The notes under the pieces were generated by a model. That model made no database searches and had not been told where the DNA came from. It saw nothing but the letters and a program-made list of their open reading frames with translations. The translations under genes were made by a program, and so were the position numbers. From IMG/VR virus record IMGVR_UViG_3300041411_000080, positions 124,001 to 188,000 of that record: a DNA stretch of 64,000 bases; one strand, given 5' to 3'. Below are positions 32,425-58,566 of the stretch, one piece after another. Origin of the DNA: a virus. Each line of letters opens with the position of its first letter. Position 1 is the first letter of the stretch.

Positions 32425-32458
32425 TCACGTTTGTAATATAGCCTTTAAAGGGTTTCTA
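32425..32458 (-). promoter_or_regulatory. Hairpin + TATATTAC-N4-GTGA promoter, copy 1
   Basis: Minus strand: AGAAACCCTTTAAAGGC (small hairpin with a CCTTTAAAGG core), then TATATTAC at 32440-32433, AAAC, and GTGA at 32428-32425. TATATTAC is the known phiKZ early-promoter consensus recognised by the virion RNA polymerase. ATG of the first gene lies 36 nt after the G of GTGA. The hairpin sits right after the stop of the GNAT gene and may terminate its transcript. Confidence 0.75.
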
Positions 32459-32917
32459 TTAAGCCCCGTTGAAAGCGTATTCCAATTTACCACGACGATA
32501 CCGACCTTTGTCAACATCAGATAGCTCAAACCCATAGCGTTTAATGAACGGACGACTATAGAGGTGGAACATTTCTTCAGAGACTGTAACACCCGGCTTA
32601 CGCGATTCGATCAGTTCAAGCATCTTGTCGATCAGACGTATACCCAAACCACCATGCTGATGATCTGGATGCACTCTTACACAACGTAACTTAGATTCAT
32701 CCGCTTCCATCTTACCTAAAGCGATACCAGCAATTCGATCGTTGTCCCGAGCAATCAACAATTTATCTTTACCGGTAATCAAACCGGGAACGACTTTGTT
32801 GACATACCAGTATTCGATGTCAGGGTAGTATTGATTCAGAGATTGGATGAAAGGTAAGACCGAGAAGGCTTCGACAAATGACGTGGTCGATTCAAGCTTT
32901 AGCATATCTGTAACCAT
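32459..32917 (-). CDS. GNAT-family N-acetyltransferase (152 aa)
   Basis: Acetyl-CoA-dependent acetyltransferase. Motif A is clear at residues ~75-102: LRCVRVHPDHQHGGLGIRLI, where Q-x-x-G-x-G binds the CoA pyrophosphate. Before it the strand IAGIALGKM, and after it the motif-B region LYSRPFIKRYGFEL, complete the fold. Length is typical. Substrate unknown; phage or host protein modification, or a small molecule, are possible. It stands alone between the terminator at 32926-32952 and promoter copy 1. Start could also be the next Met (residue 5). Confidence 0.88.
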   Translation of the reverse strand: MVTDMLKLESTTSFVEAFSVLPFIQSLNQYYPDIEYWYVNKVVPGLITGKDKLLIARDNDRIAGIALGKMEADESKLRCVRVHPDHQHGGLGIRLIDKMLELIESRKPGVTVSEEMFHLYSRPFIKRYGFELSDVDKGRYRRGKLEYAFNGA

Positions 32918-32925
32918 CCGGTATA

Positions 32926-32952
32926 AAGCCCTACCCGAAGGTAGGGCGTTTA
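32926..32952. terminator. Terminator after the 701-aa gene
   Basis: Perfect stem GCCCTAC (32929-32935) / GTAGGGC (32941-32947) with CCGAAG loop; minus-strand continuation is TTTATACC, plus-strand GTTTATG. Lies in the 40-bp gap between the Gln-rich gene and the GNAT gene. Confidence 0.75.
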
Positions 32953-32957
32953 TGTTG

Positions 32958-35063
32958 TTACTTGACCATCTTCAACAGAGTCGCCTTAGCAATCAGACGA
33001 CCTTTGATCACTTCCAGATACACGCCATCGGCAGTAATCACACGCATGGTACCAGCTACGAACTCTTCGTTGTTAACCGAACGAGTGATCATACCACGCA
33101 GGGATTCCAGCAGAGTTGGGTGAGCCGATGCAGAGATCAGCACAGCTTTACCGGAACGGATGTTCTGAGTAGACAGTTCATCCAGAGTCCAGCCCAGTTG
33201 GAAGTTGATGTAGTTATCGGCGATGTGATAAACAGGCTTAGCATCTGGATCAGTGCTTTCCACAGTTTCCATCAGGTACATAGCTTTGTTCAGTACGTTG
33301 AGATACGCACCACGCAGAACCTTAACCATGTTCTCGCCTTTCTTACGGGCCAGATAGTCTTCCAGTTCCAGATAGTCTTCACAGAAGTCAGTGATGTCAA
33401 CAGTCAGGGTCATGGCATCAGTCAGTACATCGTTGACAGCCTTAGTCAGACGGTCATTGATGAAACGATAGTAACGTACTGGCAGGATCTCTTGAGTAAC
33501 CAGTTCACGCAGCATCAGAGCTACTTGAGACAGTTCTTCTTGATCACCGATCAGACTCAGTTTATCGAAGCACTCTTTCGAGATGTTCATCGGATGTAGG
33601 AAGGTCGAACGATACTCAGCAGCAGGCATTGGAATGTCTTTGCTGAAGTCTACTTCCAACAGGTTCTGGAGTTCTTCACGGACAGTCATCTCAACTTCGA
33701 GATCAGTCGAGCCAGTGAAGGTGGTTGCCAGAATGACTGGTGGAGTAGCAGAACGTTTCAGGTGACCATCTTGTACCATCAACGCTACATCTGCTTCAGG
33801 TGCAGCATCACCACCGATGGTGGAGATTGGGGTGTCCGAGGCAACTACTTCACCATTCGGACGATACGCTTTACGACGCAGTTCTGCATCGAGTTCGTGG
33901 TCGAGGTATTTCATGTTTTGGGTCCATTCTACAAATTTCTCACGCACTGTACCGTCAGGGAACCGGACGTAGAACAGGCAGAAGCGACTTGGGTCAGCGG
34001 TTTGCTGCCAAGGCATATCATCACCGATGGTCACTTCCCAATCCACCGTTTGCGCTGGACGGGTCTCTACACCACCTGGGCTATAGATAACATCGAACGG
34101 ACGATTGATATCCAGCTTGAAGCCTGCCGGTGCATAGTAGGTTGGGTCCATGACAACTTCATCAACCGAACGTGGTGCTGGCAGATCGGTTTCTTCGATT
34201 ACTGGAGCTTGCTGTTGTTGAGTGAAGGATTGCATTGGTTTTTGTTCCTGTTGGATTGGGTTACCGAAGTAATCAGTGTTGTCGCTACTGATCTCTTCTA
34301 CTGGACGCAGTGGTTGCGTTGGAGCAGGCTCATCGTAAAAGCTATTACCGATGCTATCGCTACCACCAACCTGAGGCTGGTGATAAGACGATGGGTGAGC
34401 CATAGCAGGACCGTTACCAGACGTCTGGAAGTTATTGATCCCACCACCATAACTGTTGTTGTTATAGGTTTGCTGCGGTTGACTGAAGCTGATAGGTGGC
34501 AGTTGATTACCACCCGGAGTACCATACGCAGTCTGATGTTGGAACGTTGGCTGTTGCTGACCACCCTGACGGAAGTTGTTAATATCATTAACAACCTGTT
34601 GGTAGATCTGGAGTGCTGTTTGCAGACCAGGCCAGTACTTGCTATCCGTTACTTGTTGCAGCTGGGGGTAGGTGTTAAAGGTCATACCCAGGAATGCTTC
34701 GTACACTCGCTGAGCAGCCATTTTCTGAGCAGCGTCTGGTTGATAGTTCTTACCACGGATCAGAATCTCAGTCAGCTCTACGACCATCTGGCACCATTGT
34801 GGCCACAGCTGGTTCTGGAAGTGATTCTGAGAGAGCAAGTTATACGCGGCAACGTGAGTAGCGGAGTTGCCGATAGCACTCTGTGCAACCGACCGAAACA
34901 GACCGATGGCAAACAACCCGATCTGTTGGTTCTGATTCATCCACGGTGTCAGCTGGATTTGTGGAACACGATCATTACCCTGTGGCAGGTTAGGATTCTG
35001 GGTTGATGGATCAATGCCGTTGTAAGGAACTGGCAATTGGGCGGACTGGTTTTGCTGAAACAT
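32958..35063 (-). CDS. Large Gln/Asn-rich probable virion protein (701 aa)
   Basis: Function unknown. Residues ~1-165 include a helical domain. Residues ~165-300 are low complexity, dominated by Gln, Asn, Pro, Gly and Tyr (runs such as GGQQQPTFQHQT, QPQQTYNNNSYGGG, TQQQQ) and likely disordered. Residues ~320-701 are a folded, acidic C-terminal part. Size and location suggest a virion or head-assembly protein. AGGAATCACC precedes the ATG. Confidence 0.8.
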   Translation of the reverse strand: MFQQNQSAQLPVPYNGIDPSTQNPNLPQGNDRVPQIQLTPWMNQNQQIGLFAIGLFRSVAQSAIGNSATHVAAYNLLSQNHFQNQLWPQWCQMVVELTEILIRGKNYQPDAAQKMAAQRVYEAFLGMTFNTYPQLQQVTDSKYWPGLQTALQIYQQVVNDINNFRQGGQQQPTFQHQTAYGTPGGNQLPPISFSQPQQTYNNNSYGGGINNFQTSGNGPAMAHPSSYHQPQVGGSDSIGNSFYDEPAPTQPLRPVEEISSDNTDYFGNPIQQEQKPMQSFTQQQQAPVIEETDLPAPRSVDEVVMDPTYYAPAGFKLDINRPFDVIYSPGGVETRPAQTVDWEVTIGDDMPWQQTADPSRFCLFYVRFPDGTVREKFVEWTQNMKYLDHELDAELRRKAYRPNGEVVASDTPISTIGGDAAPEADVALMVQDGHLKRSATPPVILATTFTGSTDLEVEMTVREELQNLLEVDFSKDIPMPAAEYRSTFLHPMNISKECFDKLSLIGDQEELSQVALMLRELVTQEILPVRYYRFINDRLTKAVNDVLTDAMTLTVDITDFCEDYLELEDYLARKKGENMVKVLRGAYLNVLNKAMYLMETVESTDPDAKPVYHIADNYINFQLGWTLDELSTQNIRSGKAVLISASAHPTLLESLRGMITRSVNNEEFVAGTMRVITADGVYLEVIKGRLIAKATLLKMVK

Positions 35064-35078
35064 GGTGATTCCTATTAA

Positions 35079-36701
35079 TTAACGATTGAAACGTTCTTGT
35101 ACACTATCCAAGAATTCTCGGTCATGATCATTACGCTTAATCAACCCGTCATGCGATACCCCCGCATACAAGTTGAGTCGGCCACGCCCATCCGGGTTAT
35201 TCTTGGGTTGGTTTTTATACTGACCGACATCCGCAAGGGATACGTGAATCAGTCGACTGGAGTCACCGATCAAGGATTTGTTATGCCCACCTTTAGTACG
35301 GGCACGATCCTGTGGTACCACCATCGAGGTTAACTTAATTGCTTTGTTGTCACCTGGATAACTGATAGTGTCGAACTCACCGTGTTCACTAGTAAGCTTA
35401 CGCATGCAGGTATTCAGTTTAAACGACCGCTTCATGGCATCGTTAATTTCTTGAGCGGTCCACTCTTTGTTTAGACGTGACTGGAACGAATAGCCGAACA
35501 TGGTAATGGCGTAGTTCAGGTCAGCGAATACATAACGCAGTACAGACAGACTCTTGTTCCACAGGCTGGTTTCATCCAGATCGGTGTCATACAAGTGGTG
35601 AGCCATGTCAGTCATGATCTTGTACATCAGTTCCCAGATTGTTGAGACTTTAATCCCAACGCTACCAAGTTCCTTAATTGTCATCTCATCGAGAGAACTA
35701 TTGAAGGACTTCAAGTGGGAATCGATGTTCTCCGCCAATTTGCCTTGGTGCTCAAAGTCACCGAAGATCATCAGGCCAAGAATGATCCTCCACAACTCCT
35801 TAGAGTCGAGGTAGTGGGGTTCTACGAAACGGCTAGGGAAAGCATCGACTACATACCAGAACCCCGCTATCAAGCGTTGTACGAAGTCTGAGTCGGATTC
35901 AATCGGTACGGCAATAGCCATATCTCCGGTAGGGTGTCGACCAACCAAGAAAGCTGATTGATAAACGTGCCACTTATCTCGAGGATAGTCAGTTGGGTTG
36001 AAGTCTTTGAAGTACCCAATCTGTACATCGGCGTTAGCCCAGCGTTTGAATGTTTCCTTCACTCCGAACTCACAGAAGAAGTATTGTGCCAGGCACGATT
36101 CAATCTGTGGACGGTTATCAAGGTCACGCTTAGTACGCTTAGACATCTCGTTATGGATCTGCGACCAGATCACGTACATGATCTCACGCTCACCATTACA
36201 AACGTAGTGATGATCAATCTGCTTGAACGTAAGCTTAGCCCGTTGGAATGGAATGAACAAGCTGTTGTTCAGTACAGAATAACCTACGTCAGTCATTACT
36301 GGTGTGATGCTGTAACGTGCGCCGTTCAGGTTAGTGGTAGCACCCTGTTCAGCAAACGGTACCAAGATGTAACGATCAAACAACGGCTCGCCTTTGAAAG
36401 AACTCTTCAATGCGATCATACGGGTGTTGGTCTTAGCGATGTTTGCATTACGCTTCGAACCGTACTCTCGTGTAATCTCGTCGAACATCTTTTCAGGACG
36501 ACACACTACACTACCTTCATACTTGAACCCTTCTGGGAACATCATGGCGTTGATAGCCCACAGTTGGTCAATGTGTGCACGCCGATTACATACCCCCGCA
36601 GAGTTAACACCCATGAGGTGTTCTAAGGCAATACCATTAGCAATCGTTTTATTGAAAGCTGGTGTACGTTCCAACATTTTGCCTTTGAGGAATTTATCCA
36701 T
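35079..36701 (-). CDS. Large hypothetical protein (540 aa)
   Basis: Not recognised. No membrane helix, signal or clear enzymatic motif; Trp- and Tyr-rich helical body with a basic C terminus (KNNPDGRGRLNLY...RNDHDREFLDSVQERFNR). Ends 15 nt before the Gln-rich gene and starts 12 nt after the 346-aa gene, so it belongs to the same - unit. Weak ribosome site. Likely a virion or assembly protein by location. Confidence 0.78.
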   Translation of the reverse strand: MDKFLKGKMLERTPAFNKTIANGIALEHLMGVNSAGVCNRRAHIDQLWAINAMMFPEGFKYEGSVVCRPEKMFDEITREYGSKRNANIAKTNTRMIALKSSFKGEPLFDRYILVPFAEQGATTNLNGARYSITPVMTDVGYSVLNNSLFIPFQRAKLTFKQIDHHYVCNGEREIMYVIWSQIHNEMSKRTKRDLDNRPQIESCLAQYFFCEFGVKETFKRWANADVQIGYFKDFNPTDYPRDKWHVYQSAFLVGRHPTGDMAIAVPIESDSDFVQRLIAGFWYVVDAFPSRFVEPHYLDSKELWRIILGLMIFGDFEHQGKLAENIDSHLKSFNSSLDEMTIKELGSVGIKVSTIWELMYKIMTDMAHHLYDTDLDETSLWNKSLSVLRYVFADLNYAITMFGYSFQSRLNKEWTAQEINDAMKRSFKLNTCMRKLTSEHGEFDTISYPGDNKAIKLTSMVVPQDRARTKGGHNKSLIGDSSRLIHVSLADVGQYKNQPKNNPDGRGRLNLYAGVSHDGLIKRNDHDREFLDSVQERFNR

Positions 36702-36713
36702 ACTGCCATTTAC

Positions 36714-37754
36714 CTAGCTAACAAGTTTCTCTATGTTGCTCTTCAGTTTCACTGCATGTTCGAGAGTAGTTATAATCTCTTTCAAGCTGTGTCCAAAGAA
36801 ACAACGAATGTCTACCAACTCTTTCGGTCCACCTTGAGCTTGCGGTGGTATTAGATTTTGATTTAGGAACTCTTGCATACGCTTAAACATTTTGTCGACA
36901 TCAGCTTTAGGTAACGACTTGGTCTCACGATCAAAGTTGTTATTAAAGTTATCTAGTCCGCGAAAGCACAGTCGCTTGCGGAAGTCGGCAATTGGAATAT
37001 GTTCCACCTCAGACGTTCTCGTATCTCCGGGAGACCTACGACCGCCAATAGAGATTAGATGTACACCCTCGGGTAGCTCTTGGGTGCAAATCGGATCTAA
37101 CACAACTAGGCCTGTTGTTGAAACCATAAACAACGTCTCACGATCGGTTGGATCATGAACAACGTAAGCAGCCATACATGTCGCTGCTTGAGACACCCCC
37201 TCATCATCGTTAAAGTCTGCTATGCCTATTTGTGCCTGTCTTCGGTATGGAACCGCTACGTCCAGATGACGCGTCGCTACCAACTGAACATCAGCTGGTT
37301 TGATATATATTCCGTTTGGCCGATAATCTAAATCGCTGATATCGACGATGTAATAGAACTCCACCATACATGGAGCGTACGATCCATTATTAACCTCTCG
37401 GTCGAATCGTTCCTTTACTCTCTGAATGAAAGCTAGGTCTTGCTCTGGTAAGTTCTTGCTTACGTTTGCCCAGGGAATCGTAGCGCCCCCTGAAATCTCG
37501 TATCGCACTATTACGGTAGCTTCTTGTTTGAAGCTCTGATTGTCTTGTGGAATGTTGACCACCATCCCATCAGAATACATTACTGACAAAGGAATCGGAG
37601 ACGTGTTCAATACATCAACCGAACGCGGACCCCTTGGACGTGAGTTAACATTATAAATGTCTCTCGTGTCATAATGACTACCAGCATACTGCGGAGGTTC
37701 TAGGGAGGGGTTACAGTCAATCACCTTAGGTCTTTTAATACCAAGATTGTCCAT
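36714..37754 (-). CDS. Hypothetical protein, probably structural (346 aa)
   Basis: Not recognised. ATG 37754 is taken as start; the codon before it is TTG. N-terminal ~60 residues are Pro/Arg/Asn rich, the middle beta-rich (ATVIVRYEISGG, EFYYIVDISDLDY), the C terminus helical. Overlaps the upstream gene by 20 nt, in another frame, with AAGG inside that gene. Confidence 0.78.
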   Translation of the reverse strand: MDNLGIKRPKVIDCNPSLEPPQYAGSHYDTRDIYNVNSRPRGPRSVDVLNTSPIPLSVMYSDGMVVNIPQDNQSFKQEATVIVRYEISGGATIPWANVSKNLPEQDLAFIQRVKERFDREVNNGSYAPCMVEFYYIVDISDLDYRPNGIYIKPADVQLVATRHLDVAVPYRRQAQIGIADFNDDEGVSQAATCMAAYVVHDPTDRETLFMVSTTGLVVLDPICTQELPEGVHLISIGGRRSPGDTRTSEVEHIPIADFRKRLCFRGLDNFNNNFDRETKSLPKADVDKMFKRMQEFLNQNLIPPQAQGGPKELVDIRCFFGHSLKEIITTLEHAVKLKSNIEKLVS

Positions 37755-38196
37755 CAACTACTACCTTATCTAACTGGACATTTACTTTACGTCCAGCCCC
37801 TAGTTTCTTCAACGCCTTATTTCTAAGACGTTTAACTTCCCTGGCGGTCTTTTTCGTTTGATCACCACCTGCACCCTCTCTCCCGAATCGTTCACTTTCC
37901 ACATTGCGGTTTCGTGAAGCTTTTGCTTCGCGGATTGGCCGTGTATCTTCTGCCACTTCTTGAACTCGTTGGGTTGGCCTAGCTGACCCCCGTTCAAATT
38001 TAGAAGAGGGCATAGACCCATCCTGAGTAGGACGGATAGTTTCTGGTTGAGGTTGAGTTGGTTTGCGATCTACACTATCAGTCGCCTGAGTATTTTCTTT
38101 TAAGAGTTCGACATCAATACGGATGTCACCATAGTTCATACCAGTCTCGGTATGTTGACGCTGGACAGCATTCCAATAACGAGAAAGGAAACTCAT
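37735..38196 (-). CDS. Basic, probably disordered protein upstream of the 346-aa gene (153 aa)
   Basis: Not recognised. After a short helix (FLSRYWNAVQRQHTETG) it is dominated by Arg, Lys, Gln, Thr and Pro, ending with a Lys/Arg-rich helix (KTAREVKRLRNKALKKLGAG). Such composition fits a nucleic-acid-binding or scaffold-like internal protein, but this is inference. ATG 38196 preferred because GAGGA lies upstream. First gene after the terminator downstream of the capsid gene. Confidence 0.72.
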   Translation of the reverse strand: MSFLSRYWNAVQRQHTETGMNYGDIRIDVELLKENTQATDSVDRKPTQPQPETIRPTQDGSMPSSKFERGSARPTQRVQEVAEDTRPIREAKASRNRNVESERFGREGAGGDQTKKTAREVKRLRNKALKKLGAGRKVNVQLDKVVVDGQSWY

Positions 38197-38285
38197 TTGG
38201 GTAAATCCTCTAGAGAACATTAATTGTAATTACCCAAGCATGATATAAATCTGAAATAAATTCTGTTAAGCTATAAGACGACATA

Positions 38286-38313
38286 AAACCCCTACCCGAA
38301 GGTAGGGGCCTAT
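38286..38313. terminator. Terminator downstream of the major capsid gene
   Basis: Perfect 8-bp stem CCCCTACC (38289-38296) / GGTAGGGG (38301-38308), CATAAAA before and CCTATG after; minus strand reads GTTTTATG after the stem. About 100 nt of unassigned sequence (38314-38409) separates it from the capsid stop codon. That stretch has a small CTCCAT/ATGGAG stem overlapping the stop and no open frame. Confidence 0.85.
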
Positions 38314-38409
38314 GACTTGGTATTACCGCTCGGGTCCACGGGCTATCCCGCTTTCTTCGTACCTTAGACTTAAACCGTCTTCAGTATAGCGGGAACTACC
38401 CTCTCCATT

Positions 38410-40632: not shown

Positions 40633-40706
40633 CAATTAATTTCCTACGCAGGATGGGTTTTGGTTTTAAACGAGTATCTATTGTCCAGGACTATTTTTCA
40701 CCGGAA

Positions 40707-45183: not shown

Positions 45184-46359
45184 ATGGCCAAAGTAAACCC
45201 TGTAATGCAACACGCTCCTGTTAAGAAAACTGCTGAGCAAATTGCACTCGAAGACTTCCTGAATACCGTGCCACCAGCACTCGTCAAGGAAGGCGATATC
45301 ATGATCGACAACTCGCCAGCTGAATGGATCGAAGTTGAAGATACCAGCCTGGAACCAATTGTTGATTCCGTAGCTGTAGCCGACACACTGGACGATCTGG
45401 CTGATGACGTAGATGCGTCCACTACCGCTATCGCAATGGAATCCTATCGGCGCCTGTTTACTCAAGTAACTGAGTTGACCGGTCACCCTATTCAACCGGG
45501 TGTATCGCTGGAAAGCTTTAAGCTGACCAAAGGTGGCAAGAAGAAGCTGTCTACATCGATTCGTGAGCACGCTGCTACTATCCGCAGTTGTGTTAACATC
45601 GCTCTGGAAGACTACGTTGATTCCGTAGATGAGAAAGTAGCTAACACTATCGCGAACTACAAGCAGGTTATCGGTGATCTGAATCGTTTGGAAACTTCGA
45701 TCGACGTTCCTGATACTCCTATCCAGATCGACCACAAACAAATCTGGGATATGTTCTTCATTAACGATGAAGCAATCGATCCTACTGAAATTGGTTTGGA
45801 AGTTTCGGCAGTTAAAGAACTGGCCGAGATCGTTAGCAAAGGTGTATCGAACCTGAAGACCATGTCGAGTGGTGGCGCAGAAGGCGCTGCACTGGGTGGT
45901 AGCGAGTTCGTACAACTGATGTACAACACTGACGTTAAGATTTCCAATGGCCGCGCCAAGTTCGAGAAACAACCTACTCCTAAACCATCTAAAGAGTTGG
46001 CTAGTAAAGACTGGGGCTGGTTGGTATTCTGGGGTATCCTCGGCGGCCCGGTTGGTCTGATCACTGCTGCTATCTACCGCGGTATCGCCGGCGGTAACGG
46101 TAAAGAGAAAACCAAGAAAGAACAATCCAAAGCACAGATGCAGAACATGATCCGTGCAATCAAAGGCATGTCGTCGGTTGTTACTAAACTGGATCAAGAA
46201 GTTGACACTATCTTGAAACTGGTTGAAGCTGCTCCCGAAGAAAACAAAGCAAGTCTGAAGCGTGCCGCTTCCCCAGTACTGGAATTGGCCTCGAAGACAA
46301 TTGCCCACGTTACTGAAGTTTCTTACGGTGCTAAGGTACTGTTTAGCAAACTCGGCTAA
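45184..46359 (+). CDS. Internal head protein paralogue 2 (391 aa)
   Basis: Clear relative of the preceding protein: matching acidic leader, AMESYRR, SLESFKL and ALEDYVD protease-like sites, IQIDHKQIWDMFFI (compare IEVNHQRIFDMFMV), a hydrophobic segment near residues 275-300 (WLVFWGILGGPVGLITAAIY), and the end SPVLELASKTIAHVTEVSYGAKVLF. ATG 45184 with AAGG upstream, preferred to the TTG 6 nt earlier. Codon use is smooth and strong, like the capsid gene, suggesting high expression. Confidence 0.7.
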   Translation: MAKVNPVMQHAPVKKTAEQIALEDFLNTVPPALVKEGDIMIDNSPAEWIEVEDTSLEPIVDSVAVADTLDDLADDVDASTTAIAMESYRRLFTQVTELTGHPIQPGVSLESFKLTKGGKKKLSTSIREHAATIRSCVNIALEDYVDSVDEKVANTIANYKQVIGDLNRLETSIDVPDTPIQIDHKQIWDMFFINDEAIDPTEIGLEVSAVKELAEIVSKGVSNLKTMSSGGAEGAALGGSEFVQLMYNTDVKISNGRAKFEKQPTPKPSKELASKDWGWLVFWGILGGPVGLITAAIYRGIAGGNGKEKTKKEQSKAQMQNMIRAIKGMSSVVTKLDQEVDTILKLVEAAPEENKASLKRAASPVLELASKTIAHVTEVSYGAKVLFSKLG

Positions 46360-50148: not shown

Positions 50149-50176
50149 AAGCCCCTCCCGTTAAGGAGGGGTATAT
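50149..50176. terminator. Terminator within small-gene region
   Basis: Perfect stem CCCCTCC (50152-50158) / GGAGGGG (50165-50171), ATAAAG before and TATATG after. On the minus strand it ends the unit whose last gene is 50178-50711; the run there is CTTTATTTTC. Confidence 0.85.
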
Positions 50177-50177
50177 G

Positions 50178-50711: not shown

Positions 50712-50713
50712 TT

Positions 50714-50866: not shown

Positions 50867-50871
50867 TATAT

Positions 50872-51282: not shown

Positions 51283-51293
51283 GGTAAATTCCT

Positions 51294-51731: not shown

Positions 51732-51740
51732 CGTGAACCC

Positions 51741-52031: not shown

Positions 52032-52059
52032 ATTCAAACTCCTTTAAAAAGAAAATATA

Positions 52060-52090
52060 AGACCCCACCTCCTTTCGGAAGTGGGGGTCT
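52060..52090. terminator. Terminator closing a one-gene promoter unit
   Basis: AGACCCCAC (52060-52068) pairs with GTGGGGGTCT (52081-52090) with one bulged G. It lies 4 nt after the stop of the membrane-protein gene 52094-52432, whose own promoter is at 52482-52515. Confidence 0.8.
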
Positions 52091-52093
52091 CGT

Positions 52094-52432
52094 TTAGGCC
52101 TTGCGAATATCTTTCATCAGCTTCTTGACTTGCTCGTCGAAACGTGCGAGCCACTCGTTCAGCTCCTTCTCGTGTTGGGAGTTAAGCTCCACGAAGGTCT
52201 TACGGATTTCAGCCGCGGCCAGCTCGAAGGTGAAACGTGCTCTCTCACGATCGTTCGGGTGATCCTTCATCGCAGCATCAAACGCATGAATCATGGATTC
52301 ATACGCGGTGTCAGCATGCTTAGGGCACCACTTCTTACGCGTGGTCAACATAACCACACCCACAACAGCCGCAGTTGCTGCAACTGCGATACCAGCGGCG
52401 ATAAGGATGTTTTTCTTGTTGAACTCGATCAT
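52094..52432 (-). CDS. Membrane-anchored coiled-coil protein (112 aa)
   Basis: N-terminal anchor: KKNILIAAGIAVAATAAVVGVVML, then TRKKW and ~75 residues of highly charged helix (FELAAAEIRKTFVELNSQHEKELNEWLARFDEQVKKLMKDI), likely a cytoplasmic or periplasmic coiled coil. Only gene in its unit: promoter copy 2 upstream, terminator 4 nt downstream. A stable 8-bp dyad lies in its leader. AGGAG before ATG. Strong, separate early expression is inferred. Confidence 0.8.
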   Translation of the reverse strand: MIEFNKKNILIAAGIAVAATAAVVGVVMLTTRKKWCPKHADTAYESMIHAFDAAMKDHPNDRERARFTFELAAAEIRKTFVELNSQHEKELNEWLARFDEQVKKLMKDIRKA

Positions 52433-52461
52433 TTTTGAAACTCCTGTAGATATGTTTGGAT

Positions 52462-52487
52462 AGGTGATACCCAGTTGAATATCACCT
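52462..52487 (-). promoter_or_regulatory. Perfect dyad in the leader of the promoter-copy-2 transcript
   Basis: AGGTGATA and TATCACCT (arms 52480-52487 and 52462-52469, loop of 10) form an 8-bp perfect stem that begins on the GTGA of the promoter. It could be a 5' protective stem of the mRNA or an operator at the start site. The other three copies lack it. Confidence 0.55.
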
Positions 52488-52515
52488 TTGTAATATAGCC
52501 TTAAATGAGGTTCTA
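52482..52515 (-). promoter_or_regulatory. Hairpin + TATATTAC-N4-GTGA promoter, copy 2
   Basis: Minus strand: TAGAACCTCATTTAAGGC, then TATATTAC at 52497-52490, AAAG, GTGA at 52485-52482. Follows the stop of gene 52516-52839 without a gap. ATG 52432 is 53 nt after the G. Confidence 0.75.
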
Positions 52516-52839
52516 TTACAGCTTGTTGCGGTTACGGCAAATGGCTCGCTTCAGATAACGCTTGAAACTGGCCTTGTGGATGTACAGGTGTTCGTCAACA
52601 ACGACGTAAACCTTTTCTTTGAGTTCCATCAGACGGAACGCAACCCCGGTTACACTAATCCAGGCGTTTTGTCGCAGCTGAGGATACATCTCGTCGATCT
52701 TACCCGAGATGAATTCCAGGATGGCATCAGGCATGTGTCCGGTGTAGAGAGCGTAATACTCTTTACCGAAACCATGATGCCGTTTCATTGCATTACCACT
52801 TTCAATGGCAACGCCCAGCTTAGCTTTTTCAGATACCAT
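52516..52839 (-). CDS. Hypothetical protein (107 aa)
   Basis: Not recognised. ATG 52839 with AAGGA upstream. Central acidic helix (PDAILEFISGKIDEMYPQLRQ), strands EKVYVVVDEHLYIH, and a basic tail (RYLKRAICRNRNKL). Last gene of the unit that starts near 55849; its TAA is joined directly to promoter copy 2. Confidence 0.75.
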   Translation of the reverse strand: MVSEKAKLGVAIESGNAMKRHHGFGKEYYALYTGHMPDAILEFISGKIDEMYPQLRQNAWISVTGVAFRLMELKEKVYVVVDEHLYIHKASFKRYLKRAICRNRNKL

Positions 52840-52850
52840 GATTGTATTCC

Positions 52851-53315
52851 TTACAAGGCTACAAAGAGTGAGTCGAAATGGTCGATACCAGCGAAGGCCT
52901 CCCAAGCGAAATGGAAGACCTCTGTTGCAACGATGGAACCGTCAGGTCGTACCACCATTACGTGGTACTTCTTATCGGCCCCGAGCTTAACATCGATGGC
53001 GAAACCATTTTCTTGCTCTTCGCTGTAGCCGAACTCGAACAGTACGTGGAGAATGCATTGCTCGAACAAATCACGACAAGCCATCCCATAGTGGCGACGG
53101 CGATCACGATTCGGTTCGTTGTAACGCATCTGGAAACGTTCCCAGAGGTTGTCTTCACGAATCTTTCTTGCAATGCCTAGAACCGTACACTCGAGGTGAA
53201 TCATGAGGGCACGGATGTTGTCGCCATATGGCAGACTCTTTTTGTCACGACGGTTGATTTCTCGAACCATAGCAACAATCAGAGCCATTCCGGTTTTGTC
53301 AGTGATTTGCAGCAT
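52851..53315 (-). CDS. Hypothetical protein (154 aa)
   Basis: Not recognised. Basic helical first half (VREINRRDKKSLPYGDNIRAL, NEPNRDRRRHYGMACRDLFEQC) and a beta C-terminal half (GFAIDVKLGADKKYHVMVVRPDGSIVATEVFHFAW). GGAG lies 11 nt before ATG 53315. Confidence 0.75.
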   Translation of the reverse strand: MLQITDKTGMALIVAMVREINRRDKKSLPYGDNIRALMIHLECTVLGIARKIREDNLWERFQMRYNEPNRDRRRHYGMACRDLFEQCILHVLFEFGYSEEQENGFAIDVKLGADKKYHVMVVRPDGSIVATEVFHFAWEAFAGIDHFDSLFVAL

Positions 53316-53320
53316 TTCTG

Positions 53321-54634
53321 TTAACTCTCCAGTTTGATAGCATGACGCTCGGCGAGGTCAGTGCGATGGCGGTCGTGGTCGATATAGTCGCCGGTGAAGA
53401 AGTTACGGATAACCCACGAACCCATCAATGGGTTACCTTCAGGGCTTTGACCGTATTCACGAGCGATTACGAATTGAACATCGTTACGGGTATAGCGGTA
53501 GTGATCGTCAACCTCGAAAGCTTTGACGGGTTCTTGTAGTGCAGTGTTCTCTAAGCTGATGAGGGCATTGAGTGCATCCACCCCCGAGTACCGGCTATTA
53601 ACTACAACTTCAGCTTCACCGATGTTACGGGTAATGCTTTGTTTAGTGTCACCCATTTCGAGTGCTACCAGAACCTGTTCAGCAATGTACTCGCAAGTCG
53701 GCCAGCCGTTCTTTGCATTGGCGTCCCACAGCTTACGACTGAACTCACGGATCTTGCCCATGGTCCAGGATTCACCTTGAGCAGCGAGTACCCGACGGAC
53801 TTCTTCGGCTACAGCTTTATGTTCAGGGCTCATATCTGCAAATGGATCAGGCTTTTCACCGATGGCAATAATCCCGCGGGCCGTTTCAGATTCACGTGCG
53901 ATAATACCACCCAATGAGTTGTAGATATCACTATCACTCAGCCATTGCCCACGCTGATTGCTGCTGAAGATCGCATCCGCATAGTTACGGCACTGCCATG
54001 CCATACGAACTAAACCATTTCCCTCGATATGACGGGTCACCTCACGCAAGATCCGACTGTGTTGAACCGCATCACCAATGCTGATCTCGTAACCGCTTGG
54101 ATTTAATTGGCCCAGACGGTGGTTGAGATAGGTGAGCGACTCTTCAAAAGATGTTGCCCCATGGTCAAGCGCTTCGGCAGCGTAAATCTCAGCGTCTTTC
54201 ATGCTAAGGGGTACGCATGCCTGGTGTGCGATCGACATGAATCTTTCCGGTACGCTTAGTCCGATCTTGCAACCCGCCGACCAATTAGCGAGCAGATTGA
54301 AAAAGGAACGGACATCAAACCCAGATTTAGGTAGGGGGTCCATGTCTTTGATTGCTTTCTGGCGTACGCGTGCCAACTGGCCCTTCTCACCATATCCCAC
54401 AGTCTTACCAGTGTTGTCGATCTTACCTTCCAGGTACATCGCCATGTTGTGGGACGCCGAGCCGAATGCCGAGATATCCGTCAGATGGAGGATTTCACTG
54501 ATCGCAGTTTTTTCGATCGCCATTGCTTCTTCAGCAGAATTGCACTGAAGATTCAATTTGGATAACCACTGACCTACGGCCTGTGCAACGGCTTCGTAGT
54601 TTGGGTGAGTGGTCATGCTATCTTTTACAGACAT
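53321..54634 (-). CDS. Hypothetical protein, largest of the small-gene region (437 aa)
   Basis: Not recognised. Helical, soluble, with conserved-looking segments SGFDVRSFFNLLANWSAGCKIG, YGQSPEGNPLMGSWVIRNFFTGDYIDHDRHRTDLAERH at the end. No nucleotide-binding or nuclease motif could be picked out. GAGG before the ATG; overlaps the preceding gene by 10 nt. Its size in a field of tiny genes makes it a candidate main effector of this unit. Confidence 0.78.
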   Translation of the reverse strand: MSVKDSMTTHPNYEAVAQAVGQWLSKLNLQCNSAEEAMAIEKTAISEILHLTDISAFGSASHNMAMYLEGKIDNTGKTVGYGEKGQLARVRQKAIKDMDPLPKSGFDVRSFFNLLANWSAGCKIGLSVPERFMSIAHQACVPLSMKDAEIYAAEALDHGATSFEESLTYLNHRLGQLNPSGYEISIGDAVQHSRILREVTRHIEGNGLVRMAWQCRNYADAIFSSNQRGQWLSDSDIYNSLGGIIARESETARGIIAIGEKPDPFADMSPEHKAVAEEVRRVLAAQGESWTMGKIREFSRKLWDANAKNGWPTCEYIAEQVLVALEMGDTKQSITRNIGEAEVVVNSRYSGVDALNALISLENTALQEPVKAFEVDDHYRYTRNDVQFVIAREYGQSPEGNPLMGSWVIRNFFTGDYIDHDRHRTDLAERHAIKLES

Positions 54635-54921
54635 TTAAAAAGCCTCTTGTGGAAACGAATTGAAAGAACTGTACCCAGTGCACCACCAGTCATTGCGGTG
54701 AGCAATGCCGGTAGACCCGCTAGGACCAGAAAGGAAAGGTTAGCTGCAAAGGTCAGCGTAACGGCGCAGGATGTAATACCCGCTGCCAGTTCACGACCTT
54801 GTGCAATGTTCCGGGATTGGAAGCACTTCACGAATGCTTCACCGAAGTTGGATAGTAAACTACCCAACAACAGTATCCAGATCGGGATAACAGGTAACCC
54901 GAGGATTTCAGCGATGCTCAA
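54625..54921 (-). CDS. Multi-pass membrane protein, TTG start (98 aa)
   Basis: Three hydrophobic segments: ILGLPVIPIWILLLGSLL, ITSCAVTLTFAANLSFLVLAGL and LLTAMTGGALGTVLSI. No ATG exists before residue 78; TTG 54921 lies 7 nt after GGGG and overlaps the end of the preceding gene by 14 nt. Basic C terminus (RFHKRLFKCL) probably cytoplasmic. A holin-like or host-membrane role is possible but unsupported. Confidence 0.65.
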   Translation of the reverse strand: MSIAEILGLPVIPIWILLLGSLLSNFGEAFVKCFQSRNIAQGRELAAGITSCAVTLTFAANLSFLVLAGLPALLTAMTGGALGTVLSIRFHKRLFKCL

Positions 54922-55183
54922 GGATCAACCCCATAGCTTCAGGTTCGGTGTACACCAACTCGCCGTTAACGAACTTACAGCTCTGAAGATGCAAATGCGC
55001 TTTACGGAAACCGTAGTTACGGCTAGCTGGATCACGTACGATCTCTTCGATCTTAGCAGCGACGATGTTGATTGCCGCTTCACGAGTAACCAGATCAGAC
55101 TTGACATGTTGATCAACCCACTGGGTCGCATTCTCACGTGCAGTGGTCACTAAAAAGTGTTCCAACTTCTCTTTGTTGTTCAT
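54908..55183 (-). CDS. Hypothetical protein (91 aa)
   Basis: Not recognised. Highly charged helix start (NNKEKLEHFLVTTARENATQWVD), second half mixed. AAGGAG 6 nt before ATG 55183. Confidence 0.72.
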   Translation of the reverse strand: MNNKEKLEHFLVTTARENATQWVDQHVKSDLVTREAAINIVAAKIEEIVRDPASRNYGFRKAHLHLQSCKFVNGELVYTEPEAMGLILEHR

Positions 55184-55193
55184 GTACTACTCC

Positions 55194-55352
55194 TTAACGA
55201 GAAGTTACGAGTACAGGTTCGCCAGTAGGACCGATGCGATGACCGTAAACGATTTCAGTTTTGTTTTCTTCAGCCTGCGGAGGAGTGGTCAGCTTTTCGT
55301 TAGCGAACATTGCACCGAGGATGATACCAGATACCAGAAGCATAGCTTTCAT
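55194..55352 (-). CDS. Small exported or membrane-anchored protein (52 aa)
   Basis: Open frame ATG 55352 to TAA 55194 with a good ribosome site (AAGGA, 9 nt). MKAMLLVSGIILGAMFANEK looks like a signal peptide with possible cleavage after MFA, followed by a ~34-residue polar, acidic then neutral tail. No function recognised. Fills an otherwise empty gap. Confidence 0.65.
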   Translation of the reverse strand: MKAMLLVSGIILGAMFANEKLTTPPQAEENKTEIVYGHRIGPTGEPVLVTSR

Positions 55353-55393
55353 TTTTAGATTCCTTCAATTAATGAATTTAGGGTTGAGGCTCC

Positions 55394-55654
55394 TTAGAGC
55401 CCCATGGTAGGTTGTTGGAAGTGTGCCAGTACATCGTTCAAAGAAACGTTGGAGGGAAGCTCCAGCGCTTCAGCAAGCCCTTGTGTCAGGCTTACTGTAC
55501 AGAGATCATCATGAACACCATTGGTGTCCAGCAGATAGAACGCACGATCCATTTCACTGAAGGGATCATGGATGCAATATTCGTTGTCATCGAGGATATG
55601 ATCGATGTGGTGAAAGTTGCGGGTCAAGATTTCGTTAAGTGTTACACGACGCAT
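55394..55654 (-). CDS. Hypothetical acidic protein (86 aa)
   Basis: Not recognised. His/Asp-rich first half (NFHHIDHILDDNEYCIHDPFSEMD) then a helical second half. AGGAAA upstream of ATG 55654. GGCTC/GAGCC forms a small stem over its stop codon. Confidence 0.72.
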   Translation of the reverse strand: MRRVTLNEILTRNFHHIDHILDDNEYCIHDPFSEMDRAFYLLDTNGVHDDLCTVSLTQGLAEALELPSNVSLNDVLAHFQQPTMGL

Positions 55655-55678
55655 TGTTTTAATTTCCTATTGGTCAGA

Positions 55679-55849
55679 CTACTGTTTTATTAGTTTACGT
55701 ATTGCTTTAACGCCCCAGCAACCTAGTTCCCAGATACCCCAAAGCGAAGCTAGTATTGCAAAAAAACTCAAAGTAAAAATTACCATACTAGTGAAATTAT
55801 CACTACTGGTATCAGTATAAGAAAATAAAATGTATTGTGTGGTGGTCAT
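55679..55849 (-). CDS. One-pass membrane microprotein (56 aa)
   Basis: Open frame ATG 55849 to TAG 55679: polar N terminus (MTTTQYILFSYTDTSSDNF), membrane helix SMVIFTLSFFAILASLWGIW, then basic KAIRKLIKQ, giving an N-out orientation. The ribosome site is weak, but base composition and the membrane topology rule (basic inside) support a gene. First gene after the terminator at 55879-55896. Confidence 0.55.
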   Translation of the reverse strand: MTTTQYILFSYTDTSSDNFTSMVIFTLSFFAILASLWGIWELGCWGVKAIRKLIKQ

Positions 55850-55876
55850 GGGTATGGTCCATCATAGGGGAATAAA

Positions 55877-55900
55877 AAGGGAGTCCGAAGACTCCCCTTG
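55877..55900. terminator. Terminator after the 91-aa membrane protein gene
   Basis: GGGAGT (55879-55884) / ACTCCC (55891-55896) stem; minus strand continues CCCTTTTTATTCC, a proper U-run. It follows the gene ending at 55905. Confidence 0.75.
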
Positions 55901-55904
55901 GGTA

Positions 55905-56180
55905 TTACAGCCAGGCACCATAAAGCAGTTGGGCCTTACGACCGGTATCTGCCATGGTGTAGGAGTGATCCCACGAATCACGATGTTGACGGATGAATGC
56001 AATCATCTCGGTCTTCAGGTCTTCATCAGACAGACCCTTGGCACGAGAGATGGCTTCATGAGCTGTGATCATATCTTCGATATGAGTCAGAGCTTCTTCG
56101 TCAGCGACATGCATGCAGGTAGCGAAGATAACCGCACCAGCAAATGCTGCCAACGAATATTTGATAATAGACCCGATCAT
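55905..56180 (-). CDS. Small membrane-anchored protein (91 aa)
   Basis: N-terminal hydrophobic segment IIKYSLAAFAGAVIFATCMHVA, then an acidic and His-containing helical domain (LTHIEDMITAHEAISRAKGL...). AAGGAG before ATG. Last gene of the promoter-copy-3 unit. Confidence 0.75.
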   Translation of the reverse strand: MIGSIIKYSLAAFAGAVIFATCMHVADEEALTHIEDMITAHEAISRAKGLSDEDLKTEMIAFIRQHRDSWDHSYTMADTGRKAQLLYGAWL

Positions 56181-56210
56181 TTAAATTCTCCTTAAAGACC
56201 GTTACCGCGA

Positions 56211-56369
56211 TTAAATGTTTGCTGCGGACTCTTCGGCTTCGGCAGTTGCTTCAGCACGTTGAGCGTTAGCCTGATCTTCTGCGGCTTTACCATCTTTGTC
56301 TTGCAGGTAGAAGTAAGCAGCAGTACCAACAGCAGCCAGAACAGCAACACCAGCGTATACGAATTTCAT
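56211..56369 (-). CDS. One-pass membrane microprotein with Ala/Glu tail (52 aa)
   Basis: Open frame ATG 56369 to TAA 56211: KFVYAGVAVLAAVGTAAYFYLQ membrane helix, then a charged Ala/Glu-rich tail (AAEDQANAQRAEATAEAEES). TGAGGA upstream and an ATGA overlap with the previous stop support translation. Unknown function. Confidence 0.65.
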   Translation of the reverse strand: MKFVYAGVAVLAAVGTAAYFYLQDKDGKAAEDQANAQRAEATAEAEESAANI

Positions 56370-56713
56370 GTTGTTTCCTCAGAGCAGATTTGGATTAGGT
56401 CGTTTAGAGCGAAGTCTTTAGCAGTTCCCCGATACATCAGGTCAACTTGCTCAAGCATTGAATTTACCACAAGTGTAGCGATGTCTCTGATCTCGTCAGC
56501 TCTCTCCTCAGGAAAGAGTCGACGGTAGTTATCACATTGCATGAGACACAGATGCAAACGCCTCACAGCGCTTCGTGCGCGGTTTGAGTGATATATCTGT
56601 AACTCTCTGACATCACCTAAGCGAGCAGAGACCAACAAAGCTACGGAAGCCACTACAGCTACCGATGCCGCACAGCCTACGGCCATGCCTTTCATCATCC
56701 GACCGATGTTCAT
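56366..56713 (-). CDS. Membrane-anchored small protein (115 aa)
   Basis: Starts NIGRMMKGMAVGCAASVAVVASVALLVSARLGD, an anchor or signal with Cys at its core, then a basic helical domain (YHSNRARSAVRRLHLCLMQCDNYRRLFPEERADE). ATGA overlaps on both sides. Confidence 0.75.
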   Translation of the reverse strand: MNIGRMMKGMAVGCAASVAVVASVALLVSARLGDVRELQIYHSNRARSAVRRLHLCLMQCDNYRRLFPEERADEIRDIATLVVNSMLEQVDLMYRGTAKDFALNDLIQICSEETT

Positions 56714-56805
56714 GGGTCAACCGCGTCGACTACAACTTCGTAGACGACACGCACCACGATTACAACAGTCATGATGCTGATCAAACCCTTGACCACTTCA
56801 CGCAT
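56710..56805 (-). CDS. One-pass membrane microprotein (31 aa)
   Basis: Open frame ATG 56805 to TGA 56710: MREVVKGLISIMTVVIVVRV plus VYEVVVDAVDP. AAAGGA lies 8 nt upstream inside the previous gene, and its stop overlaps the next ATG (ATGA). A Val-rich membrane helix with an acidic end. Tight coupling on both sides is the main evidence. Confidence 0.6.
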   Translation of the reverse strand: MREVVKGLISIMTVVIVVRVVYEVVVDAVDP

Positions 56806-57121
56806 CGTTTGTTTCCTTTTGTCGCATCATTGGGGTAACAGCACCCCACAGACCGTTATCAGTTTTCTCTTGATCCGCAGGTCGCTCCACGATCCGATAG
56901 ATCGAGTTCAGAGTTTCCACCTGACCTTCTTCGATACTACCTGCAATGATCGGGGAAGTCCGAGTATCGCCGCCCAGGATGGTACCGTTAGCCAGAACCA
57001 TAATGCCGACAGCGACATTACGACCCACGGCTTGTTCATGACCAGGCCAGAAAGTTTCAGCCGAGACCAGTTCAACGTCACAGATTTGGTAAACAGGTTT
57101 AACGCGTTCTTGATTAGACAT
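56798..57121 (-). CDS. Hypothetical protein, first gene of promoter-copy-3 unit (107 aa)
   Basis: Not recognised. Beta-rich first half (ICDVELVSAETFWPGHEQAVGRNVAVGIMVLANGTILGGD), soluble. ATG 57121 is 29 nt after the presumed start G of promoter copy 3, AAGGA upstream. The NVAVGIMVLANG pattern is reminiscent of a small beta-barrel but no family is claimed. Confidence 0.75.
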   Translation of the reverse strand: MSNQERVKPVYQICDVELVSAETFWPGHEQAVGRNVAVGIMVLANGTILGGDTRTSPIIAGSIEEGQVETLNSIYRIVERPADQEKTDNGLWGAVTPMMRQKETNDA

Positions 57122-57146
57122 GGTAGATTCCTTCAGGTTGGTTAAT

Positions 57147-57180
57147 TCACAAAAGTAATATAGCCTTGAGTTGGCTTCTA
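57147..57180 (-). promoter_or_regulatory. Hairpin + TATATTAC-N4-GTGA promoter, copy 3
   Basis: Minus strand: TTAGAAGCCAACTCAAGGC, then TATATTAC at 57162-57155, TTTT, GTGA at 57150-57147. The AGCC/GGCT stem is perfect here. It overlaps the TAG stop of gene 57178-57570. Confidence 0.75.
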
Positions 57181-57570
57181 ATACCAGCTTGCTTGGTTAA
57201 AGGCATCCCGATACGACATGTGGTCAGGTACACCCAGATTTTCTTTTACAGCGTCTTGTATTACAGTAGTCTCGGCTTCGTAGAAACACTCAAAGCGTTC
57301 CAACGGTACACCGATACGTTCTTCTTTGATCGCACGAGCAATCCCCATTCCTTTAGGATATACATAACCCTTTGGCCATGGTCGAGTCGCCGGTTGGTGA
57401 AACCAACTAGGACGTTCTTCTGGTTCAGACCGGCGCCTTACTACAGCGTCGATCTCTTGGAAGTCTTTAACTGCTTGGTTAGACGCACTGAATGCGCCGA
57501 CACCCATTGTTTCTTCGATCTCAGCCAGCATCTGACTGATTCGGCTAATTGGTGTAATACCTATTCGCAC
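57178..57570 (-). CDS. Hypothetical protein, GTG start (130 aa)
   Basis: Not recognised. GTG 57570 behind GAGGAG. Acidic helical N-terminal half, a Pro/Arg/Trp-rich middle (RRRSEPEERPSWFHQPATRPWPKG) and a helical end. Lies alone between the terminator at 57597-57616 and promoter copy 3. Confidence 0.72.
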   Translation of the reverse strand: MRIGITPISRISQMLAEIEETMGVGAFSASNQAVKDFQEIDAVVRRRSEPEERPSWFHQPATRPWPKGYVYPKGMGIARAIKEERIGVPLERFECFYEAETTVIQDAVKENLGVPDHMSYRDAFNQASWY

Positions 57571-57591
57571 AACTATCTCCTCGTAACGTCA

Positions 57592-57622
57592 TAAGACCCC
57601 TGCGGTTAAGCAGGGGCTTTAT
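57592..57622. terminator. Terminator after macro-domain gene
   Basis: Perfect CCCCTGC (57597-57603) / GCAGGGG (57610-57616) with CATAAGA before and CTTTATG after; minus strand reads GTCTTATGACG. Closes the promoter-copy-4 unit. Confidence 0.85.
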
Positions 57623-57623
57623 G

Positions 57624-58106
57624 TTAATCCCACGCGTTAGTGGTTTCCATCCATGGCGGATAGACCACTACCACTTCATTCGGCATGTGCTCAGCAAAGA
57701 GTTTAATGCTTTCTTTTACATCCGAAAAACTAAGCCCACCGTTTGCACAGCCCAGAGGAGGGACAATGATTTTCCACGTTGGGTCGATATCACCTTCTTC
57801 ACCAACTGAGTCTACCATCCACTGTAAACCAGCAGATATGTATTCGGTCAATGATGGATCTTGCCAGCGATCCTTAGTAGGGAACATCATGTAGTGCTTG
57901 CCGTTATCAGCTTTGTAGATTACAGGATTACCGATTGTAATAATCTTCATCCGACAATCATGACGATAGCGTTCATATAGGTCGGGATGGGCGTCTTTGA
58001 AAGATTTGGCTAATCCTTTGCCCATCACGCCTACACAGTTAACGGTGATTAGATAAAGATCACCTTCTTGACGAAAGATGTCTTGTCCAATTACGAATTC
58101 AACCAT
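57624..58106 (-). CDS. Macro-domain protein, DarG-like ADP-ribosyl hydrolase candidate (160 aa)
   Basis: Macro domain binding ADP-ribose. The signature TVNCVGVMGKGLAKSFKDAHPD (residues 21-42) is the DarG/ALC1-type loop, and MMFPTKDRWQDPSLTEYISAGLQW carries Lys78 in the FPTK motif that DarG uses to remove ADP-ribose from DNA. IIVPPLGCANGGLSF supplies the second phosphate loop. Full-length single domain, as usual. ATG 58106 with GGAG upstream. Third gene of a short unit with two membrane microproteins under an early-type promoter, so an early role in reversing host (DarT-like) ADP-ribosylation is inferred, not shown. NAD-metabolite processing is the alternative. Confidence 0.87.
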   Translation of the reverse strand: MVEFVIGQDIFRQEGDLYLITVNCVGVMGKGLAKSFKDAHPDLYERYRHDCRMKIITIGNPVIYKADNGKHYMMFPTKDRWQDPSLTEYISAGLQWMVDSVGEEGDIDPTWKIIVPPLGCANGGLSFSDVKESIKLFAEHMPNEVVVVYPPWMETTNAWD

Positions 58107-58160
58107 GGTAGGTCTCCAAGTAGATGTGTGTAAATTCACTCATCTAATTGGGCACAATGG

Positions 58161-58334
58161 TTATCTTACTTCTTCGTACACCTTCTTAGCACCAACGATT
58201 GCTGCACAGATACCGGTGAACAGTGCTACAGCGATTACATAATGCTGCGTCACTTCTTTGTTGTGGTGTGCTTTCGCGAATTCTTCCGCGTTAGCTTCTT
58301 TGGACTTCTTTGGATCGTAGAATTTACCGAACAT
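58161..58334 (-). CDS. C-terminal-anchored membrane microprotein (57 aa)
   Basis: Open frame ATG 58334 to TAA 58161, TGAGG 7 nt upstream. Charged helix FYDPKKSKEANAEEFAKAHHNKE followed by membrane helix YVIAVALFTGICAAIVGA and basic-acidic end KKVYEEVR. Second gene of the macro-domain unit. Confidence 0.68.
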   Translation of the reverse strand: MFGKFYDPKKSKEANAEEFAKAHHNKEVTQHYVIAVALFTGICAAIVGAKKVYEEVR

Positions 58335-58344
58335 ATTGCGTACC

Positions 58345-58512
58345 TCAAAAACCGTTTAGACAGAAAGTTATTAACAGTGTCACAACAAACGTTACAGCTA
58401 TTCGCATTGGTGTTATCACGCGGACCGCAGGGTCATGCATGATGTTCTCTTTCCAATATTTCTCGACAGCCTTTTTATGGGCTTTATCGTAAGCAAATGT
58501 AGCCTTATCCAT
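58345..58512 (-). CDS. C-terminal-anchored membrane microprotein (55 aa)
   Basis: Open frame ATG 58512 to TGA 58345, AGGAG 9 nt upstream. Basic helix (DKATFAYDKAHKKAVEKYWKE) followed by membrane helix MRIAVTFVVTLLITFCL at the very end. Layout resembles the next gene (amphipathic helix then C-terminal anchor), so the two may be distant relatives. First gene after promoter copy 4 (24 nt from the G). Confidence 0.68.
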   Translation of the reverse strand: MDKATFAYDKAHKKAVEKYWKENIMHDPAVRVITPMRIAVTFVVTLLITFCLNGF

Positions 58513-58532
58513 TGGTTATTACTCCTGTAGGT

Positions 58533-58566
58533 TCACGATTGTAATATAGGCGTTAAAACGCTTCTA
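58533..58566 (-). promoter_or_regulatory. Hairpin + TATATTAC-N4-GTGA promoter, copy 4
   Basis: Minus strand: TTAGAAGCGTTTTAACGCC, then TATATTAC with its T at 58548 down to 58541, AATC, GTGA at 58536-58533. The stem is GCG/CGC here instead of GCC/GGC, a compensated change. The element is also the coding 3' end of gene 58533-58934. Confidence 0.75.

Follow-up and report, generated by a model that had tools for sequence, protein, structure and literature searches.

The early promoters of the phiKZ group of phages are defined by an octamer of the TATATTAC type and are attributed to a virion RNA polymerase (vRNAP), for which we know of no recognised sigma factor. For 201phi2-1, the predicted early promoter is TTAWTAVAA_HYWTTTRARR_BTATATTACDWHDGTG (PMC7058600 Table 2). 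The early promoter of AR9 has been given as AAATATATATTAT-(6N)-G(+1), and in phiKZ and phiR1-37 the start is conserved as well, 6 nt past the element (PMC5312081). Here we describe a window of 64,000 nucleotides, bases 124001-188000 of the 320,858-bp virus record IMGVR_UViG_3300041411_000080, whose minus strand carries four copies of the sequence TATATTAC-N4-GTGA. With a probability of roughly 0.93, these are phiKZ/201phi2-1-type early promoters in a 201phi2-1-like, nucleus-forming jumbo phage. As promoters they are of an already known type, seen earlier in relatives.

The window matches Viktualia and 201phi2-1 best, both jumbo phages of Pseudomonas of the 201phi2-1-like kind, with about 70-80% DNA identity over parts. 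Outside the window, the genome encodes a homologue of chimallin, the nuclear shell protein that is the membership trait of the Chimalliviridae (201phi2-1 gp105; 66% over 631 amino acids, genome 241410-243302). Two subunits of the non-virion RNA polymerase (nvRNAP), gp68 and nvRNAP beta, have homologues at 78% identity each. A homologue of phiKZ gp180, a vRNAP subunit and virion head protein, is recognised here from its sequence alone (70% over 490 amino acids, genome 91517-92983). Because homologues of chimallin, nvRNAP, and vRNAP are all present, the virus can be taken to form a phage nucleus and to encode both kinds of phage RNA polymerase.

The first-pass annotation of this DNA had proposed that short operons are preceded by early promoters of the phiKZ type, and the motif, its strand bias, matrix scores, and related phages all support that proposal. 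The four sites are exactly where they had been placed, on the minus strand, with the variable bases as listed; 0.01 such sites are expected in the window, and no shuffle reached four. Site 1 (32425-32464) reads TTAATAGAA-N4-TTTAA-AGGC-TATATTAC-AAAC-GTGA, with a putative +1 at 32426 and the ATG at 32392. Site 2 (52482-52521) ends in TATATTAC-AAAG-GTGA (putative +1 52483, ATG 52432), site 3 (57147-57186) in TATATTAC-TTTT-GTGA (57148 and 57121), and site 4 (58533-58572) in TATATTAC-AATC-GTGA (58534 and 58512). The distance to the ATG is 34, 51, 27, and 22 nt when counted from the putative +1, which agrees with the 24-53 nt given previously, so that all four sites precede an ATG by 22-51 nt. The block of site 4 overlaps the end of the upstream gp165-homologue gene, whose stop is at 58533.

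Searching the whole genome and its relatives, as the first-pass annotation had suggested, yields the same picture. The bare octamer is not rare in the window (5 occurrences against 1.66 expected), and hence it is the added GTG that confers specificity on the set of sites. Exact copies of TATATTACNNNNGTG number 13 in the genome, all of them on the minus strand, which is the gene strand, and none on the plus strand, with about 0.1 per strand predicted from composition and few or no hits for reverse-read controls; eight end in GTGA and the remaining ones in GTGG, GTGC, or GTGT. Likewise, RTG follows at the right place in 15 of the 16 minus-strand octamers, and GTG follows none of the three on the plus strand. 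Ten related phages contribute 120 further copies of TATATTACNNNNGTG, confined to a single strand per genome, and the reverse-read controls were all zero. A 40-position weight matrix, trained on the sites of this class (class I, see below) in other phages only, finds exactly four sites in the window. Sites 1 to 4 score 44.7, 38.9, 38.7, and 49.2, whereas the next best match scores -9.4 and the highest score among 20 shuffles is 7.3. Rather than occurring as often inside genes as before operons, the matrix matches in the window are these four sites and nothing comparable, on one strand, each preceding a gene, an outcome in favour of the first-pass proposal.

Conservation extends beyond the motif first noticed, to a unit that comprises TTAGAA, beginning 19 bp before the octamer, then TTTAA-RGC, TATATTAC, four variable bases, and GTG. 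The AR9 spacing, together with the phiKZ and phiR1-37 start 6 nt past the element, would make the second G of GTGA the +1 at all four sites, an assignment that rests on the statement in the AR9 paper plus a 2020 review. Counted from that G, the octamer occupies -14 to -7 in all four sites, as expected for an AT-rich block that spans about 10 nt around -10, and by sequence a G lies 7 nt past the block in each case, at the place of the conserved start. The earlier idea that GTGA may mark the start site thus agrees with the spacing in AR9, phiKZ, and phiR1-37. Its companion, that GTGA is a constant added in this phage, does not hold: GTG is not new, because the published 201phi2-1 consensus already has it, TG is conserved in phiKZ, and the final A varies. 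Among gene-strand octamers of phiKZ, selected without requiring GTG, position 6 is T in 28 of 33 and position 7 is G in 25 of 33, with G, A, or T at position 5; the nine opposite-strand octamers have no such T/G pattern. These counts indicate that the whole group shares TG, whereas an invariant first G is a refinement found in this genus and related ones.

The bases ahead of the octamer fall into two classes. We fitted a mixture model to the 12 bases before the octamer at 130 sites from ten phages, including this one. With one, two, three, and four components, the Bayesian information criterion was 2,968, 2,569, 2,658, and 2,763, so that two are preferred; the second component gained 289 log units, compared with at most 37 in column-shuffled data, and every one of the 130 sites was assigned with a probability of at least 0.9. 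Class I (n = 89) has TTTaAAgCC before the octamer, and class II (n = 41) has ATnTcAGATY directly before it. All four sites of the first-pass annotation are class I. In full, the class I form is TTAGAA/ATTTAAA ... TTTAAARGC-TATATTAC-N4-GTGA, and the class II form is AATYTSAGATY-TATATYAY-N5-TG.

Features outside the bases used for the split also differ, although the sites in related phages are not independent and the p values between classes are therefore optimistic. The final A of GTGA, at +2, is the majority base in class I only (71/89, or 80%, versus 13/41, or 32%; Fisher p = 3e-7). The spacer most often begins with A in class I (72%) and with T in class II (68%). The first gene has a median length of 95 amino acids in class I versus 150 in class II, the latter a lower bound because frames are often cut by the ends of the stretches. 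A strong hydrophobic segment is present in 41 of 87 first genes of class I versus 4 of 40 of class II (p = 4e-5). About half of the class I first genes across the ten phages encode very small proteins with a single hydrophobic segment, such as those at 52094-52432 and 58345-58512. Perhaps these small membrane proteins relate to the early infection vesicle.

Class II promoters front the shell gene of this phage and of 201phi2-1, Viktualia, Phabio, and Psa21; the same very probably applies to phiKZ, where the site at 45568 is recognised by its similar leader. The gp68 gene is fronted by class II in this phage, 201phi2-1, Viktualia, PhiPA3, PA1C, and phiKZ (57984), the nvRNAP beta operon in 201phi2-1 (71703) and Viktualia (164093, by position), and the gp123 operon in Viktualia, PhiPA3, and this phage. 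The assignments in phiKZ, PhiPA3, and PA1C and that of Viktualia beta come from position, reading-frame start, or leader similarity and not from full annotation. Ahead of the beta operon in this phage is a degenerate class II site, GAGATC-TATATAAT-agcc-ATG. In 201phi2-1, gp55, counted here with the nvRNAP subunits, is located behind the shell gene. According to the published list of nvRNAP subunits, gp123 is one of them, and it is an early-gene product in phiKZ (PMC4666361). Together, the class II-fronted genes comprise the shell and the nvRNAP subunits, and none of these shell and nvRNAP operons was found to have a class I promoter in front.

One such promoter lies in the window itself. The first-pass annotation counted four promoters; the four class I sites are real, but the set is incomplete, as it lacks a fifth, class II site at 38232-38271 on the minus strand. 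This promoter reads TTAACAGAATTTATTTCAGATT-TATATCAT-GCTT-GGGT, TCAGATT being the bases directly before the core, has a putative +1 at 38233, and lies after a terminator-like hairpin and before 37735-38220 (gp201 homologue), ahead of the gp201-gp204 homologues. The third gene behind it (35079-36701, minus strand; 78% identity) is the homologue of gp203 and phiKZ gp123, the nvRNAP subunit for the N-terminal half of beta. The class II matrix scores the site (38247) at 20.7 versus 6.2 for the best shuffle; its core has drifted to TATATCAT and its start carries GGG. Equivalents are found in Viktualia (229310) and PhiPA3 (122676). Most class II cores of this phage are TATATCAT or TATATCAC, whereas class I keeps TATATTAC; cores that have drifted from TATATTAC to TATATCAT are found on the minus strand at genome positions 243369, 231389, 80422, 62331, 111308, and 162233. 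As a result of this drift, a search with the strict octamer recovers class I sites for the most part, and this explains why class I alone was noticed at first. In Psa21, a long dyad (AATCTCAGATCTAT...ATAGATCTGAGATT) flanks the class II core at 180764, as if a second half-promoter faced back.

We infer that the two classes differ in function. A hand count in 201phi2-1 alone gave a phiKZ homologue among the first three genes for 4 of 7 class II and 3 of 14 class I promoters, numbers too few for significance, and the named operons alone therefore carry the argument from gene content. An exact-pattern search of IMG/VR recovered 4 contigs for class I, with a pattern that was too strict, and 32 stretches for class II. 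The division of early promoters into two classes may be new: no description of it was found in the papers searched, which did not include the original transcription studies of phiKZ and 201phi2-1, and priority is therefore not established. We consider it an even bet that the vRNAP of phiKZ-like phages reads two distinct early classes, with class I serving small, fast-changing, often membrane proteins and class II serving the shell and all nvRNAP subunits.

A scheme for the early programme can be sketched. The vRNAP would be injected along with the DNA and would bind the block of about 36 bp formed by the TTAGAA-like element, TTTAA-RGC, TATATTAC at -14 to -7, and GTG, and transcription would begin at the last G of GTG. 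From class I it would transcribe short operons of small, mostly lineage-specific proteins, and the second class, with TCAGATY before the octamer, would front the genes for the nuclear shell and the non-virion polymerase. If so, class II would drive the programme that ends vRNAP transcription, and one polymerase, or vRNAP with a co-injected factor, could time or weight the accessory takeover genes versus the switch to the nucleus. The split is seen from phiKZ to 201phi2-1; it bears on promoter choice by vRNAP and on the separation of takeover genes from nucleus and polymerase genes, and it could be checked in existing phiKZ and 201phi2-1 transcriptomes through the 12 bases upstream of the octamer.

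Several points weigh against reading the four sites as phage early promoters. Their activity, early timing, and dependence on vRNAP are read from the DNA and from relatives, as is the exact +1. There are weak sigma-70-like matches at site 1 (TTAATA-16-TATATT, 9/12) and at the 38247 site (TTAACA-18-TATCAT, 10/12), both within the range of shuffles. Furthermore, at three promoters a dyad extends up to 5 nt upstream of the putative +1, and a plain start there leaves it unexplained. The sigma-70 matches invite the idea that these are host promoters with TATATT as the -10 hexamer. TATATT agrees with TATAAT in 5 of 6 bases, and one of the four sites reaches a 9/12 match with a spacer of 16. However, -35/-10 pairs at 16-18 bp spacing are no more frequent than in shuffles, the TTAGAA of the conserved upstream block is 13 bp from the octamer rather than 16-18, conservation extends through AC-N4-GTG, which is superfluous for sigma-70, and phiKZ-type phages are independent of the host polymerase. 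Host promoters are therefore very improbable.

The dyad raises another alternative, namely that the block is an operator or an RNA element in a conserved 5′ leader, for instance a regulator site common to early genes. The inverted repeat AGGTGATATTCAACTGGGTATCACCT (52462-52488) overlaps the start of site 2, its left arm starting about 5 nt before the putative +1. The pattern AGGTGATA-N5-17-TATCACC occurs at exactly three places in the genome (13695-13719, 176463, and 298342-298366), with N9 spacing and always at AAAG-type class I starts, giving an inverted repeat of 8-11 bp over the start at site 2 and two other promoters. The exact pattern has no occurrence in ten relatives; looser versions are found in Viktualia (53375) and PhiPA3 (302799 and 2327). 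RNA from about -5 would fold at -14.3 kcal/mol, a hairpin that would form if RNA began near -6, whereas RNA from +1, like the window leader cut at that position, does not have this 5′-terminal fold. Either these three transcripts start earlier than predicted, or the repeat has its role in the DNA itself and may, for instance, serve as an operator. We also considered a 5′-terminal hairpin as a general feature of early mRNAs and rejected it: perfect 6-bp arms starting at -2 occur in 5 of the 130 sites versus 0.5 expected, mostly in a few related leaders. The dyad is likewise missing at sites 1, 3, and 4 of the window and at most of the 130 sites, and the part common to all sites lies upstream of and at +1, as in the mapped AR9 and phiKZ promoters. 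An operator or leader element as the basis of the whole block is thus about as implausible as host promoters. Processed 5′ ends at an endonuclease site, or chance likeness in AT-rich spacers, are hardly credible: nothing in this analysis supports them, 0.01 sites are expected, the sites keep strictly to one strand in each of 11 genomes, and 36 bp are conserved, mostly upstream of any transcript. Early promoters thus remain the preferred reading, and by extrapolation from relatives the four sites are almost certainly read by the vRNAP.

Of the units behind the four sites, all on the minus strand, three had been placed in the small-gene region with unknown early-type products. For the products, this description is mostly correct; the exceptions are a macro-domain protein behind site 4 and the gp206 homologue, annotated as a head maturation protease, behind site 1. 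The site 1 operon (30769-32392) encodes proteins of 151 (no family), 156 (gp206 homologue; PHROG head maturation protease), and 227 amino acids (gp207/phiKZ gp125 homologue). Its counterpart, the 201phi2-1 promoter at 138195, is just ahead of gp206-gp207; here, one extra gene lies between. An acetyltransferase homologue of 201phi2-1 gp209 (32459-32917, minus strand) is upstream of site 1 in this phage, whereas gp209 lies beyond the gp206-gp208 genes in 201phi2-1, a local rearrangement. The first gene of site 2 (52094-52432) encodes a 112-amino-acid homologue of 201phi2-1 gp180 with a single hydrophobic segment near its N-terminus, and directly after it is a terminator-like hairpin, CCCCACTTCCGAAAGGAGGTGGGG, with a T-rich tail (52063-52086, minus strand). 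Given this hairpin, site 2 probably drives a one-gene unit. It has no counterpart in 201phi2-1, where gp180 is inside a gene run without such a promoter.

The first gene of site 3 (56798-57121) encodes 107 amino acids of PHROG 23976, of unknown function. Like the promoters at 115387 in 201phi2-1 and 210221 in Viktualia, which are directly downstream of the macro-domain gene, site 3 lies just past that gene; it differs in that one extra gene is inserted, and the genes driven have no recognisable kinship to those of the counterparts. The site 4 operon (57624-58512) encodes a 55-amino-acid protein with a hydrophobic segment (58345-58512), a 57-amino-acid gp166 homologue, and the macro-domain protein (57624-58139; gp167/phiKZ gp104 homologue), which scores 28.6 bits against Pfam Macro and is 77-81% identical in 201phi2-1 and Viktualia. 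Macro domains bind ADP-ribose. Site 4 corresponds to promoters at 114577 in 201phi2-1 and 209424 in Viktualia, all between the homologues of gp165 and gp166-gp167. Three of the four sites therefore have a positional counterpart promoter in these relatives, which indicates that the promoters persist even as the small genes that they drive are replaced. With 13 strict promoters and the class II set, sequence suffices to read the early regulon of this nucleus-forming phage, about which little is known.

Compared with known systems, the four sites are closest to 201phi2-1, which has 21 exact copies of TATATTACNNNNGTG, all on one strand. The octamer, the four-base spacer, GTG, and the upstream TTA..AA and TTTRARR are alike, and the published consensus contains TATATTACDWHDGTG. 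The upstream elements TTAWTAVAA and HYWTTTRARR are represented at the four sites, as the class I matrix scores of 38.7-49.2 indicate; by eye, site 1 fits TTAWTAVAA fully and the other sites fit it with deviations, site 4 departing in the distal element. Among the spacers, AAAG and TTTT fit the published DWHD, whereas AAAC and AATC break it, a detail of the consensus rather than its defining part. The published line is also a single consensus, whereas our data split into two classes. phiKZ has the octamer (28 early promoters), T6 and G7 after it, and the class split (45568 and 57984 being class II); it differs in having G, A, or T at position 5, where this phage and its near relatives almost always have G. 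AR9 resembles the sites in its AT-rich block about 10 bp upstream and in starting at a G that lies exactly 7 nt past this block (PMC5312081), but its block ends in T, the fixed GTG is absent, and its genome contains uracil. Finally, the OBP and N1M2 promoters (...TTTCARRYAKATATTATYWAAGTGWA; PMC7058600) are class II-like, with TTTCAGAT before the octamer and TG at the start; they differ in their TATATTAT core, and that source lists no class I counterpart.

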